Origin: Gemmatimonadetes bacterium T265
Lineage (GTDB): Bacteria > Gemmatimonadota > Gemmatimonadetes > Gemmatimonadales > Gemmatimonadaceae
DNA: 64,000 bases
Direction of reading: 5' to 3'
Assembly (NCBI GenBank): GCA_019973575.1
Contig: BPUI01000003.1
Span: 62,001 to 126,000, forward strand
The position numbers and the translations under genes were made by a program. Every line of letters starts with the position of its first letter. Position 1 is the stretch's first letter. The notes beneath the pieces were generated by a model. The model was not told the origin of the DNA. It saw nothing but the letters and a program-made list of their open reading frames with translations, and ran no database searches. This document shows, piece by piece, positions 8,772 to 39,967 of the stretch.

Positions 8772-10187
8772 ATGCCCCCGCGCCGCCCGGCCCCCGCCAC
8801 CCTACCCGACGGCCCGGCGCCGATCCCGAACCGCTGGACCGCGTTCGGCCTCGAGGACGACCCGTTCTTCCAGGAGGAGCTCGGGCCTCGCGCCACCGAC
8901 GCCTACCCGGTCGAGCGCTACTTCGTGGGCCGCGCCGAGGAGGTCCGCGCGCTCGTCGCCCGCGTCGGCGGCGCGCGGAGCAGCCGCACCGTGGTCGAGG
9001 GCGACGCCGGCGTGGGCAAGACCAGCTTCGTCAACCGCGTCAAGCACGACCTGGCCGCCCACGGCGTGCGCACCCACGAGCAGCCGGTCCGGGTCACGGC
9101 CGAGACGACGCTGCAAACGTTCGTGGGCGACTTGCTGCGCGTGCTGCTCGCGATGCACGCCGCCCGACTGTTAGGCGCCGGGCAGGCGCGCGGCGCGCCG
9201 GCCGCGGCCGACGTGGTGGATGCCGGTCTCTGGGCCAAGATCACGCGCGTGGCGGAAGGCCAGTTCCTCCGCACGGGCGGCGTCGGCGCCGCCGGGTTCT
9301 CGGTGAGCGCTGGCGCGACCAACGTCGCCCCGCAGCTCGGCGGTGACCTCTACCACGACGAGATCCGCGCCGCCGTGCGCGACCTTGCCGGTGCGAACGG
9401 GCGCCTGCTCCTCCACGTGAACAATCTGGAGAACCTGCGCGACGTGGGCACGGCCCGGGCGGCCACGCTCTTCCGGAACCTGCGCGACCTGCTGCTCATC
9501 CCGGGAGCGCACTGGCTGTTCGTGGGCCGGCCCGGCACCGCGGCCGACGTGTTCCAGGTGCACGCCGAGACCGACTCGGTGATGAGCGAGCCCGTGCTCC
9601 TCGACCCATTCGCGCCCGAGGAGGTCGCGGCCCTCCTCGAGCGGCGCTACCGCGAGCTCCGGCGCGGCATGCGCTTTACGGCGCCCGTGGAGCCCGCGGC
9701 AGCCGCGGCGCTCTACCGCCGCTACCTGGGCGACCTCCGGAACTTCCTGCGGCTCCTGAGCACCGCGAGTGAGCGCGCGCTGCATCCCGACGGGGGTCGG
9801 CCGATGACGGAGGTCGAGGTCCTCGCGGCCGTGGCGCCCCGGTACCGGGCGCGGCTCGCGCGCGACCTCGGGTCGGACGACTTCGACGCGCTCCGCCGCA
9901 CCCTGGCCGCCCTGGTCGGCGAGGGCGGGCCCACACCCGCGGGACGTCCGACGCGCGCGCGGGCCGGGGCACGCCTCACGCGTGCCGTCGGGCCGGGGCT
10001 GTTGCCCGAACTGCGCGCCGCGGACGTCGCGCACGCGACGGGGCTCTCGCGCCCGGCGGCCGGCGCGCTCGTCGCGCGGCTCGTGGCGAAGCGGGTGCTG
10101 CGCCCGACGCGCGACGACCACACCGGGCGCTACCACGCCGTCGCCGGCCAGGTGACGGTGGCGCTCGAGTCCGTCCTGAACGCCTAA
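8772..10187 (+). CDS. P-loop ATPase with C-terminal winged helix (AAA/Orc-like)
   Basis: 471 residues. A Walker A motif (GDAGVGKTSF, near residue 77) sits in an AAA_16/AAA_22-type fold. The following Walker-B-like strand reads LLLHVNNLEN, with Asn in place of the usual acidic residues. An arginine-finger-like LFVGRPG and the C-terminal region VAHATGLSRPAAGALVARLVAKRVLRP (a winged helix) complete the Orc1/Cdc6-like or STAND-like layout. Only 6 bp separate it from the next gene, a giant nuclease-like protein, so the two probably work as a pair. Function is not known; a defence role is inferred from the pairing only. Confidence 0.7.
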   Translation: MPPRRPAPATLPDGPAPIPNRWTAFGLEDDPFFQEELGPRATDAYPVERYFVGRAEEVRALVARVGGARSSRTVVEGDAGVGKTSFVNRVKHDLAAHGVRTHEQPVRVTAETTLQTFVGDLLRVLLAMHAARLLGAGQARGAPAAADVVDAGLWAKITRVAEGQFLRTGGVGAAGFSVSAGATNVAPQLGGDLYHDEIRAAVRDLAGANGRLLLHVNNLENLRDVGTARAATLFRNLRDLLLIPGAHWLFVGRPGTAADVFQVHAETDSVMSEPVLLDPFAPEEVAALLERRYRELRRGMRFTAPVEPAAAAALYRRYLGDLRNFLRLLSTASERALHPDGGRPMTEVEVLAAVAPRYRARLARDLGSDDFDALRRTLAALVGEGGPTPAGRPTRARAGARLTRAVGPGLLPELRAADVAHATGLSRPAAGALVARLVAKRVLRPTRDDHTGRYHAVAGQVTVALESVLNA

Positions 10188-10193
10188 CGCGTC

Positions 10194-13100
10194 ATGCCTG
10201 CTCTCGTGCTCGCCGACGCGCAGGACCTGGTGCGGTGGGCGGCCACGCGCCGCGCCCAGGAACTCTTGCCCGCCCTCGTCCGCCGCCTCGTCCACGCCAC
10301 GACCACGACCGCGACCCACGTCGGCTTGCCCTCGGGCGAGGCCGTGCAGCTCGGCGGCTACGACGGGGTGGTGACCACCGACGAGGACCACCCCGCGGTG
10401 CCGCGGGGCATCTCGGTGTGGGAGATGGGTACCAACCAGGACGTCGCGACGAAGGCGAACGGCGACTACGCCAAGCGCACCGCCGCGCCGCCCGTGAGCG
10501 ACGTCGGGGCGATTACGCCGGCGCAGACCACCTTCGTGTTCGTCACGCCGCGGCGGTGGCCGGGGAAGGCCGCGTGGGCGGAGGCCCGCCGAGCCGAGGG
10601 CGCCTGGCGCGACGTACGCGCGCTGGACCCGGACAACTTGGAAGGCTGGCTGGAGCAGGCCCCGGCCGTCCACGTCTGGCTGTCCGAAGTGCTCGGCAAG
10701 CGGCCGAGCGGCGCCGACGACCTCGAGGCGGTGTGGCGGGACTGGGCCGAGGCGACGGCACCGCCGCTCTCCCGGGCGCTCATGTTCGCGGGCCGCGAGC
10801 CGACCCGCGACGCGTTAGCGGCGTGGCTGCGCGGGGAAGACGGGCGCCCGACGCTCGGCGTAGAAGCCGAGTCGCCCGAGGAGGCCGTCGCGCTCGCCGC
10901 GGCAGCGCTCCAAACCATCCCAGAAGCAGATCGGGCGGCACTACTGGCGCGCACGGTGCTGGTCCGCGACACCGCCGCGTTCGCGCATTTGGCCGCGACC
11001 GACGCGCTGCTCACGATCGTCACCGCGTTCCCGGCCGGCGACCTCGCGCAACGCGCGGTCCGGCAGGGACACCGCGTGCTCCTCGCGCTCGCGCCGGGGT
11101 CGGGCGTGACCGCGACGCTCACCGTCCCGCGGCTGCACCGCGACGAGGCGGCGCAGGCGCTGGAGACGATGGGGATCGCGCGCGCGCCCGCGACCTCGGC
11201 GGCCTCGCCAGGCGGAGCGTGCTCGCCCTCCGCCGCCGGCTCGCGACGAGTGCGAGCGTCAGCCGGCCCGCGTGGGCCGCCCCCGACGTGGGGCCGGGTC
11301 TCGTCCCCATGCTGCTGCTGGGCGGGTTCGACGAGACGATTGCGGGCGACCGCGAGGCGCTCGCGGCTCTCGCCGAGGAGCCAGACGACGTCGTCGTCGC
11401 CCGCCTGGTGCGGTGGGCGGCGGAGGCCGATCCGCCGGTCCGCCGAGTGGGCGGCGTGTGGTATCTGGTGTCCAAGGCCGACGCCTGGGAGGCCCTCCAC
11501 CGCTTCCTCACACGCGATGTGCTGGAGCGCTTTGCGGCCGTCGCGCTGGCGATCCTCGGCGCGCCCGACCCGGCGTTCGAGCTGCCACCCGACCAGCGGT
11601 GGGCCGCGGGGCTGTACGGGAAAAAGCGCCAGTATTCCGGGCTACTGGCGCGGAACGTCGCCGACACCCTCGCGCTGTTAGGCGCCCGCGGCGACATCGT
11701 GCGCCTGGGTGGGGGCGCGACGGCCGCGACCACCGCCGCGCGCGTCGTGCGCGATCTCTTCGAGGCCGCGGGCCGGGACTGGACGCGCTGGGCAGCATTT
11801 GCCCACGTGCTGCCGTTGCTGGCGGAGGCGGCGCCCGACGAGGTGCTCGCGGCGCTCGAGGCCGGGCTCACGGGCGACGACGCGCCGGTGATGGACCTCT
11901 TCGGCCACGACACCGGGCATTGGAGCGCGGGGCCGCTGCACACGGAGCTCCTCTGGGCGCTCGAGCGCATGGCGTGGAGCCCCGACCTGTTAGGCCGCGC
12001 CGCGCTCGTCTTGGCGGAACTCGCCCGCCGCGACCCCGGCGGGAAGTACGCGAACCGCCCGGGGGCGAGTCTGCGCACGATCTTCCTGCCGTGGCTGCCG
12101 CAGACGGCCGCGCTGCTCGACGCGCGGCTCGCGGTCCTTGACACACTCCGGCAACGCGAGCCGGCCGCCGCGTGGAGCCTAATGGTTAGGCTGCTGCCGA
12201 CCCTGCACGACCACAGCATGCCGACGACCGCACCGGACTGGCGGGACTGGGCACCCGAGGTACCGCAACGGGTGACGAACTTGATACTGGAGCGCCACGC
12301 GAACGAAATAGTGCGGCGGCTGCTTGAGGACGCGGGCACGGACGGCGCCCGCGGGGCGGCGCTCGTCGAGGCGCTCGACGACGTGCCCGGCGAGGCTCAC
12401 GATGCGATCCTCGCGGGTCTGGAGCGCCTCGCCGGCGAGCCGCTGCCCCCCGCCGGGCGGCGCCGAGTCTGGGGCGCACTCCGCACCTTCCTGAATCGCC
12501 ACCGCTCGGTGCCCGAGGCGGACTGGGCGCTCCCCGCCGAGCGCTTGGCGGCGATCGACGCGGTATTCGGGCGCTTCGAGCCGGAGGACGTCGTCGACCG
12601 TCACGCGTGGCTCTTCTCGAACCGCCCCGCACTGCCGGAGGGGCGGGAGCACGACTGGAAGGCGCAGCATCAGCTGCTCGAAACGCGGCGCGTCGAGGCG
12701 GCACGCGCCCTGTACACGACCCGTGCGCCGTCCGATCTGATCGCCCTCAGCACGACGCTGGAGCAGCCGGGGGCGCTCGGCGCCGCGCTCGCCGAGAGCG
12801 GGGCAATCGTGTCCGACGCAGACGTAGCGGCCCTGGCGGGCGAGGCGCTCGCGGACGAGCGGCCCGGAGCGCGCGCGTTCGGCCGCGGATTCTTGGGCAC
12901 CCTCGTCCACCGGCGCGGGTGCGATTCGCTCTTCGATCTCCTGAACACTTACGGAGGCGGGTAGTCCGATGTCGTCCGCGCCGAAGCGTTACTCGTGCTG
13001 CCGGCGGGACCGGCGACGTGGGCCGAGGTCGACCGGCTCCGGCCGGAAGGGCAAGCCCAGTACTGGCGGCAGATGCCGAATTATTGGGTGGGTCCCGCCG

Positions 13101-14080
13101 ACGTCGACCGAGCGATGACGGCACTCGTGCGCCATGGTCGGCCGCACGCCGCCGTCGATCTCGCCGCGATGCACGTCATGCGGGAGCGCCGCACAACGAC
13201 GGACGGGGCTGGGTCGGACGACACGGAGGCGGACGGTTCAGGGACACAGGGGTCGGAAGCCGAGCGTGCGCCGACGGTTTCGACCGATATCATTGCCGCC
13301 ACGCTGCTCGCCGCGGTCCAGGTGGCGGAGGACTCCAACGGCGCCCGAAGCTCAGGCTACGAGTTGCGTACGCTCTTCGACGCGCTCGACCGGGCGGTGG
13401 CGCGCGGCGAGCTCGACGAGACGGAGGTCGCCCGCCTGGAGTTGCTCTATTTGCCGGCGCTGTCGAATGAGCGTACCCCCACGGTCCTGCATCGGCAGCT
13501 GGCGCGCGACCCCGCCCTCTTCGTGGAGGTGGTGTGCCTCGCCTACCGCGAGGAGGGTCTGCCCGCCCGCGACCTGAGCGACGGGGAGGCGCTCAGCGCG
13601 CGCTTAGCGTACGAGCTTCTGCAGGGTTGGCGCGCGCTCCCGGGCGACCCGGCGAACGCCGACGGCGGAGACGCGCTCGGCCGGTGGGTGCGCGACGCAC
13701 GCGAGCGGCTGACGCAGTCCAACCGCCGTCCGATCGGGGATGTGCTGATCGGCCAGGTGCTCAGCGGGTCGCCCGGCGGCGCGGACGGGGCGTGGCCGCC
13801 CGAGTCGGTGAGGAACCTGATCGACGACCTTCGGAGCGAGGACCTCGAACGCGGGCTGTGGACCGGCACGTTCAACCAGCGCGGCGTCGTCACGAAGCAC
13901 CCGCTCGCGGGCGGAGCGCTGGAGCGGGAGATTGTTGCGCGGTACGAAGCCGACGCCGCGAGCATCGCGGCGCGCTGGCCGAGGACCGCCGCCATGCTCC
14001 GCGCGTTTGCGGCGAGGTATCGGGACGACGCCAGGCGCGAGGACGACGAGGCGGAGCTGCGGCATGACCTGGACGTCTGA
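10194..14080 (+). pseudogene. Giant (about 1,295-codon) nuclease-like protein, broken by one frameshift and one amber codon
   Basis: Reading starts at ATG 10194. The N-terminal 190 residues look like a PD-(D/E)XK nuclease domain (QLGGYDGVVTTDEDHP, then SVWEMGTNQDVATKANGDYAKRT and TTFVFVTPRRW), a pattern seen in Mrr-like restriction proteins. Near 11177-11190, in an alternating GC run, the frame shifts and coding continues in the second frame with a helical-repeat-like body to TAG at 12962-12964. After that amber the same frame goes on uninterrupted to 14080. Protein-like composition on both sides argues for recent breakage, sequencing error or recoding rather than three genes. It follows the ATPase by 6 bp. 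Confidence 0.6.
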
Positions 14081-38753: not shown

Positions 38754-39080
38754 ATGGCGGGAGAGCCGAAGACGCGGCGCGCGTTCAGTGCCGAATTCAA
38801 GATCGAAGCGTTGCGCCGGATGGCGGAGCGGCGCGCAGCCGGGGTGTCGCTGAAGCAGATCGGCCGCGAGCTGGATGTACGAGACGACCTGCTGCGGAAG
38901 TGGCAGCGCCAAGCCAAGGAGCGCGCCGGGGCGCCGCCCGCCGACGTGTTCCCCGGGCAGGGGCGGTTGCCGGCGGACGAGGCCGAGTTGAAGCGCCTGG
39001 AACGGGAGAACGCGCGGCTGAAGCAGGAGGTCGCGTTTCTAAAAACCGCGGCGGTGTACTTCGCGAGGGAGTCGCGGTGA
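38754..39080 (+). CDS. IS3 OrfA (HTH_Tnp_1)
   Basis: 108 residues. RRAFSAEFKIEALRRMAERRAAGVSLKQIGRELDVRDDLLRKWQRQAKE is the Tnp_1 helix-turn-helix; ELKRLERENARLKQEVAFLKTAAVYFARESR is the leucine zipper used to contact OrfB. Just before the end a run of A (C-T-A-A-A-A-A-C, 39040-39047) could support programmed frameshifting into orfB. Confidence 0.9.
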   Translation: MAGEPKTRRAFSAEFKIEALRRMAERRAAGVSLKQIGRELDVRDDLLRKWQRQAKERAGAPPADVFPGQGRLPADEAELKRLERENARLKQEVAFLKTAAVYFARESR

Positions 39081-39967
39081 GCGACAAGTACGCCGTGATC
39101 GCGGCCGAGCGCGGGACGTACCCCGTGCGATGGATGTGCGCGCTGTTGGGCGTGAGCGTGGCCGGCTTCTACGGCGCACAGCGCCGGCCGCCGGGCACGC
39201 GCGCCGCCGCGGACGAGCGGGTGCGGGTGGAGGTGCGCGCCGCACACGCGAAGAGTCACCGGCGCTACGGGGCGCCGCGAGTGCATCGCGAGCTGCGCGC
39301 GGCCGGCGTACGCGTCGCCAAGAAGCGCGTCGCGCGGCTCATGCGCGAGGACGGCCTCGTGGCGCGCCGCGCGCAGCGCCGCGTACGCACGACCGACTCG
39401 GCGCATGCGCACCCGGTCGCGCCGAACGTGGTGGCGCGCGACTTCGCGGTCGCGGACCAGCCCGGGCTCGACCGCGTTTGGGTCGCCGATTTCACGTACA
39501 TCCCCACGCGCGAGGGCTGGCTGTTCCTGGCGGTCGTGCTCGACCTGGCGAGCCGCCGCGTGGTGGGGTGGGCGGTGCGCGAGACGATGGAGACCGAGCT
39601 CGTGCTCGCGGCCCTGCATGCGGCGCTCGCCGACCGGCGCCCCGCGCCCGGGCTCGTGTGTCACTCGGATCGTGGGTCGCAATACGCGAGCGCGGCCTAC
39701 CAGGTGCTGCTCGCTGCGTCTGGCGCGGTGCCGAGCATGAGCGCAAAAGGCGATTGCTACGATAATGCTGTTGCCGAGGCCTTCTTCGCGACGCTCGAAC
39801 ACGAGCTACTGGCTGATGTCACCTTCGTGTCGCGCGCGGCGGCGCGGCCCGCGATCTTCGACTTCCTCTTCTGGTACAACGGCGAGCGGCGCCACTCGAG
39901 CCTCGACTACGTGAGTCCCGTCGCCTATGAGCAGCACCTGACCGCGCGCCCCGCGCGAGCAGCCTAA
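39077..39967 (+). CDS. IS3 OrfB (rve integrase domain)
   Basis: 296 residues from a GTG overlapping the orfA stop (GTGA). HTH_21 region SHRRYGAPRVHRELRAAGVRVAKKRVARLMRE, then the DDE core: VWVADFTYIPTREGWLFLAVVLDL, CHSDRGSQYAS, and the Glu in GDCYDNAVAEAFFATLEHE. FLFWYNGERRHSSLDYVSPVAYE closes the domain. All three catalytic acids are present, so the element may be functional. Confidence 0.92.
   Translation: MSDKYAVIAAERGTYPVRWMCALLGVSVAGFYGAQRRPPGTRAAADERVRVEVRAAHAKSHRRYGAPRVHRELRAAGVRVAKKRVARLMREDGLVARRAQRRVRTTDSAHAHPVAPNVVARDFAVADQPGLDRVWVADFTYIPTREGWLFLAVVLDLASRRVVGWAVRETMETELVLAALHAALADRRPAPGLVCHSDRGSQYASAAYQVLLAASGAVPSMSAKGDCYDNAVAEAFFATLEHELLADVTFVSRAAARPAIFDFLFWYNGERRHSSLDYVSPVAYEQHLTARPARAA

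Follow-up and report, generated by a model that had tools for sequence, protein, structure and literature searches.

A broken gene for a putative Avs-like sensor-nuclease with an inactive STAND module, next to an ORC-like ATPase gene in Gemmatimonadetes bacterium T265

In a 64,000-nucleotide stretch of contig BPUI01000003.1 of Gemmatimonadetes bacterium T265, hereafter the window, the gene for an ORC-like ATPase is directly followed by a very large gene that is interrupted twice. A reading of the sequence alone had taken the two for a possible uncharacterised defence pair, and the locus raises the question of whether the two products act together and, if not, what the large protein is. As detailed below, the nuclease fold, the defence neighbourhood of the relatives and the double interruption speak for the defence part of that proposal, whereas the pairing with the ATPase does not stand (Table 1). 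The large gene belongs to an uncatalogued family in which a helix-turn-helix (HTH) domain, usually placed first, is followed by a nuclease domain, a STAND fold devoid of Walker A and an alpha-helical solenoid. The explanation we favour, with a probability of roughly 70%, is that it encodes, or once encoded, a single-protein, Avs-like sensor-nuclease sentinel with an inactive STAND module, which is decaying in this genome.

Table 1. Coordinates, in the window, of the ATPase gene and of the parts of the interrupted large gene
Feature	Position	Strand	Basis
AAA_16/ORC-like ATPase with C-terminal winged helix	8772..10187	+	Profile matches; 471 aa
Walker A of the ATPase, GDAGVGKT, intact	9000..9023	+	Sequence; kept in aligned ATPase relatives
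Large sensor-nuclease gene (putative), about 1,295 codons, with one frameshift and one in-frame stop	10194..14080	+	ORFs, homology
Large gene, piece 1	10194-11180	+	ORF
PD-(D/E)XK nuclease domain, residues 4-158	10203..10667	+	AlphaFold, structural alignment
Asp57, candidate catalytic residue	10362..10364	+	Invariant in 30/30 relatives
Glu77, candidate catalytic residue	10422..10424	+	Invariant in 30/30 relatives
Lys87, candidate substitute for the catalytic lysine	10452..10454	+	29/30 relatives
Degenerate STAND/AAA+ NTPase domain, residues 171-329	10704..11180	+	Structural alignment; Walker A absent
Loop expected to hold Walker A: AESPEEA instead of GxxxxGK(S/T)	10866..10886	+	Alignment; GLSGVGKT/GLSGLGKS in PD-lambda-4 A relatives
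Frameshift in a GC-dinucleotide run, near 11.18 kb	11175..11190	+	Homology changes frame here
Piece 2: helical/winged-helix part and start of the solenoid	11183..12961	+	Homology, predicted structure of a relative; other frame
In-frame TAG within the solenoid	12962..12964	+	Homology in one frame on both sides
Piece 3: C-terminal part of the alpha-helical solenoid	12995..14080	+	Match to L075; frame as piece 2

The two genes lie on the same strand, and only 6 bp separate the stop codon of the ATPase gene from the ATG of the large gene at 10194, so that the arrangement originally described, an ATPase with a winged helix ahead of a gene of some 1,295 codons, is correct. The three pieces of the large gene align, one after the other, with consecutive stretches of the same intact relatives and thus represent one broken gene rather than three; in the relative L075, they correspond to residues 1-322, 326-894 and 929-1258 (E = 3e-87, 5e-154 and 5e-55, respectively). 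Homology spans both the frameshift and the TAG, in agreement with the earlier count of two breaks. A profile search of contigs, for which a 13-row alignment gave no conserved patch and a 7-row alignment was used instead, yielded 40 loci, 35 of which carry an open frame of more than 1,100 aa, indicating that intact copies are the commoner state; a first scan with the middle piece of the window gene as query had found nothing. The closest relative, from genome G177 of the same bacterial family, is 61% identical and is broken too, at another place. Programmed frameshifting at 11.18 kb was considered and rejected, given that this nearest relative has its break elsewhere. The window copy has probably lost its function.

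The Mrr- or PD-(D/E)XK-like character attributed to the N-terminus was confirmed by structure prediction. AlphaFold modelled the first piece, aligned with 29 relatives, at pLDDT 92.7, and VIA re-alignment separated this piece into two domains. In the predicted model, residues 4-158 align with FokI (Z 9.3, rmsd 4.0, 140 aligned positions), N.BspD6I (Z 8.9), EcoT38I (Z within 8.0-8.9), MspJI (Z 8.1) and Can2 (Z 8.0), all of the PD-(D/E)XK fold. The Z-scores of 7-9 obtained for the N-terminal domains, which compare a prediction with known structures, are modest; Foldseek alone returned nothing below E = 0.001 for the N-terminal piece, and sequence searches of the PDB gave no meaningful match. Catalysis by Asp57, Glu77 and Lys87 seems plausible but not certain, because the canonical lysine of the ExK motif is missing: position E+2 is occupied by Gly, Ser or Thr across the family, and Lys87 lies ten residues beyond Glu77.

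Between the nuclease and the helical tail, the large protein contains its own degenerate STAND NTPase fold, which the sequence-only reading had missed. Residues 171-329 align with ClpA, RFC and CED-4 at Z 7.2-8.0, values that, taken alone, are within the range of common arrangements. The Walker A motif GxxxxGK(S/T) is missing in all 35 full-length relatives, the corresponding loop being AESxEEA or similar, and in the predicted model the loop between the first strand and helix of the domain is short. The 1200-residue model of L075 (pLDDT 86.6) contains, further on, additional helices, a winged-helix-like part and the alpha-helical solenoid. In Foldseek searches, this model has Avs4 as its top match (E = 2e-7), followed by human SAMD9 (E = 7e-7), and the STAND-TPR protein 6mfv is matched as well (E = 8e-4). 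A 930-aa protein of Escherichia coli P2-like prophages begins at the start of the solenoid (26% identity over 902 aa) and has neither the nuclease nor the inactive STAND domain; it follows a GapS6a-labelled gene, as in strain DLI.5a (L119:8675-11793). In E. coli EC96 (L120:7546-11088), the solenoid module is fused to an unrelated N-terminus (30% identity over 939 aa), which, judging from its motifs (DGFDTDD ... QIKHS), looks like a Cap4-like PD-(D/E)XK domain. The occurrence of the same module with other front ends in E. coli supports the view that the C-terminal solenoid is a swappable sensor joined to different effectors.

Members of the family are found in at least eight phyla, namely, Pseudomonadota, Actinomycetota, Bacillota, Bacteroidota, Myxococcota, Acidobacteriota, Chloroflexota and Gemmatimonadota, on 22 plasmid records and, in one case, on a viral contig, where the gene adjoins a terminase-like gene. 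Most relatives possess the N-terminal HTH; the window protein and the G177 and Chloroflexales copies lack it and start at the nuclease domain, and the L075 copy is likewise devoid of an HTH. In RefSeq and plasmid records, the proteins are labelled ‘helix-turn-helix transcriptional regulator’ or ‘hypothetical protein’, and Pfam scans of family members give nothing above the cut-off except the HTH; defence-gene surveys therefore probably overlook the family.

A check of the neighbours of homologues, as suggested by the sequence-only reading, places relatives beside AbiE, Hachiman, Avs2, pAgo, Olokun and restriction-modification (R-M) systems, on plasmids and in prophages. Among 218 neighbour proteins from 25 loci, PADLOC models applied at an E-value level of 1e-15 matched AbiEi six times, AbiEii five times and HamB three times, and Avs2, pAgo, OloA/B, IetA/S, a type I methyltransferase, type IIG enzymes and others are also represented. 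The plasmid copies adjoin AbiE, restriction enzymes, SIR2 and a type I R-M system. The contrast set, which consists of neighbours of the ATPase loci only, yielded mainly one type III R-M/DrmD-like operon, present at two loci, and generic helicase and methyltransferase models match there too. The window genes were scanned with PADLOC in a pool with genes of the relatives, the matches of which are not assignable singly. In the window, the large gene is accompanied by the ATPase gene, a BlaI-like regulator and a protein kinase, and there is no obvious defence system among these neighbours.

The ATPase matches AAA_16 above the Pfam cut-off (E = 4e-12, 47.3 bits versus 32.6) and orc1/cdc6 weakly (E = 3e-6), and its residues 412-453 correspond to a MarR-type winged helix (E = 5e-5). 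In the alignment of the window ATPase with its relatives, almost every member has hhHhNNhE as its Walker B region, with Asn replacing the usual Asp. Relatives were detected in 12 further genomes among the 298 genomes of the phylum searched, and a second, stand-alone paralogue with 38% identity is encoded in the same genome (L019:9229-10551, contig C4), with no large gene adjoining. An IS3-like two-gene transposase is located at 38754-39967 of the window, and apparently the same element, both proteins of which start alike, at 14163-15376 of L019. Across the 13 loci (the 12 other genomes and the own-genome paralogue), the neighbour genes are varied and often housekeeping. Two of the relatives (L059:3373-12284 and L060:3573-12396) reside within a conserved helicase-ATPase-methyltransferase-restriction operon of the type III R-M/DrmD-like kind, and the ATPase may accordingly have defence links of its own.

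Does the ATPase partner the large protein? Using tblastn, no ATPase relative was found at any of about 50 large-gene loci; there is no ATPase match in 72,556 plasmids and no large gene at the 13 other ATPase loci. Conserved co-occurrence, expected of a two-gene defence pair, was thus found neither on plasmids nor in the genomes of the phylum nor at the large-gene loci, and the ATPase-nuclease pair proposed at the outset was rejected, as relatives of either gene never appear together. The large gene of G177 is preceded instead by a HerA-like (DUF87) ATPase gene and another gene; these HerA-like and zinc-finger-like genes, directly upstream of the closest relative (L013:6225-9680), possibly form a HerA-NurA-type pair. 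The window ATPase is probably a chance neighbour and no functional partner of the large gene: with no ATPase at the large-gene loci and no large gene at the ATPase loci, their adjacency would be a chance feature of this genome or, at most, the result of a very recent joining.

Several other explanations deserve consideration. A two-gene system in which the large protein has lost its NTPase function and is served in trans by the active ORC-like ATPase would be in line with the common strand and the 6-bp gap, with a Walker A that is intact in the ATPase and missing in the large protein, and with the two ATPase relatives in the helicase-ATPase-methyltransferase-restriction operon, which imply that this ATPase family is able to join defence operons. 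Yet no ATPase relative lies near any other copy of the large gene, not even the 61%-identical one from the same bacterial family, or on any plasmid, and the large gene is missing from the 13 other ATPase loci, so that the comparative data have largely refuted this explanation already; we consider it the least probable of all. It is also very improbable that the protein works like Avs4, as an Avs-type STAND nuclease driven by ATP, with the nucleotide bound at a non-canonical site: although Avs4 ranks first among the full-length structure matches and the middle domain has the AAA+ fold, the absence of GxxxxGK(S/T) from 35 of 35 relatives and the short loop between the first strand and helix argue against it.

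Nor does a transcription factor or housekeeping regulator with an inactive nuclease fold appear probable, despite the N-terminal HTH of most relatives, the regulator label on the plasmid records and the missing ExK lysine. Asp57, Glu77 and Lys87 are nearly invariant, the HTH is missing from the window, G177 and Chloroflexales copies, in which the nuclease domain comes first, and the patchy spread, carriage by plasmids and prophages, and defence neighbours are unlike those of a housekeeping regulator. A more serious, if still unlikely, alternative is that both breaks arose as errors of assembly and that the organism carries an intact gene, which concerns the window copy only and is compatible with an Avs-like protein. 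The frameshift falls within a GC-dinucleotide run, a typical site of indel errors, and most relatives are intact; however, the second break, an in-frame stop, is no indel and speaks against purely an artefact of sequencing, and the 61%-identical relative is broken as well, elsewhere.

We thus return to the single-protein sentinel. From the build, kinship and neighbours of the family, we infer a function in defence, and we likewise infer its trigger, its mode of activation and DNA as its target. The solenoid would bind an invader component, and the inactive STAND module would relay the resulting change through its conformation or by forming oligomers, with no hydrolysis of ATP. The nuclease would then be released and cut DNA, whereby the phage would be stopped or the infected cell killed; the N-terminal HTH of most relatives might serve in autoregulation or DNA binding. 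The prevailing view of NLR-type immune proteins is that they are switches gated by ATP. With a broad family that has kept the build and lost the nucleotide site, one may ask whether a sensor-nuclease of the Avs-like type is able to act in the absence of ATP. That this is an NLR/Avs-like immune family of at least eight phyla which has permanently lost its STAND nucleotide site and fires its nuclease without ATP, the inactive STAND serving as sensor or scaffold, is a tentative proposal to which we assign somewhat less than even odds.

Comparison with known systems bears out the initial failure to assign the locus to a named system: there is no close match, and the only recurrent PADLOC match, PD-Lambda-4_A, is remote (E = 3e-4 for the middle piece of the window gene; 9 of 29 relatives, best E = 4e-8). 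PD-lambda-4 originates from a functional selection for anti-phage activity (Vassallo et al. 2022, PMC9519451), and its naming and P-loop content have been described (PMC10952713). Comparison of the family profile with that of PD-lambda-4 A (hhalign, 96.1% over 750 columns, E = 3e-9; hmmsearch, about 1e-7) reveals remote homology over the end of the NTPase domain and the solenoid, and some PD-lambda-4 A members appear from their sequences to have an Mrr-like N-terminus. PD-lambda-4 A differs in that its own Walker A is intact, as found in six of six relatives fetched from Enterobacterales, and that component B adjoins it in L112; the window gene has neither, its neighbours being the ATPase, BlaI-like regulator and kinase genes rather than a component B gene. 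At the sequence level, the family would best be regarded as a distant relative of PD-lambda-4 A, not as a member. With Avs4 and other AVAST proteins, the window family shares an N-terminal PD-(D/E)XK-type effector, a central STAND/AAA+ fold and a long helical C-terminal sensor, but it has lost Walker A throughout, has added an HTH in most members and is matched by none of the PADLOC Avs models, either in the window genes or in the relatives. The likeness to human SAMD9 is one of structure only, in the second-best full-length Foldseek match.

GapS6a-GapS6b, according to the RefSeq label the GAPS6 defence system, resembles the family insofar as GapS6a of the E. coli P2-like prophages precedes the 930-aa protein with the solenoid module; the window large gene has no GapS6a and is preceded by the AAA_16 ATPase gene. 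Membership in GAPS6 was rejected, as the proteins that follow GapS6a in Vibrio and Pantoea are not detectably homologous.

In the part of the literature covered, we came across no account of a protein with the HTH-nuclease-inactive STAND-solenoid build. Inactive STAND (iSTAND) modules are components of MoxR-vWA ternary systems and BREX, in which they have been proposed to sense invader nucleic acids (PMC8195603, PMC12839542). In both those systems and the present family, the STAND fold is retained and the nucleotide-binding motifs are eroded. The known iSTAND modules are separate components or fused to PglZ/PglW, the BREX form being devoid of the C-terminal helical bundle, and no MoxR-vWA or BREX genes adjoin the window large gene. 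In the window family, by contrast, the module is placed between a nuclease and a long solenoid, with the helical/winged-helix part kept, and the family offers a single-protein test of the proposal that inactive STAND modules are sensors of invaders (PMC8195603, PMC12839542).
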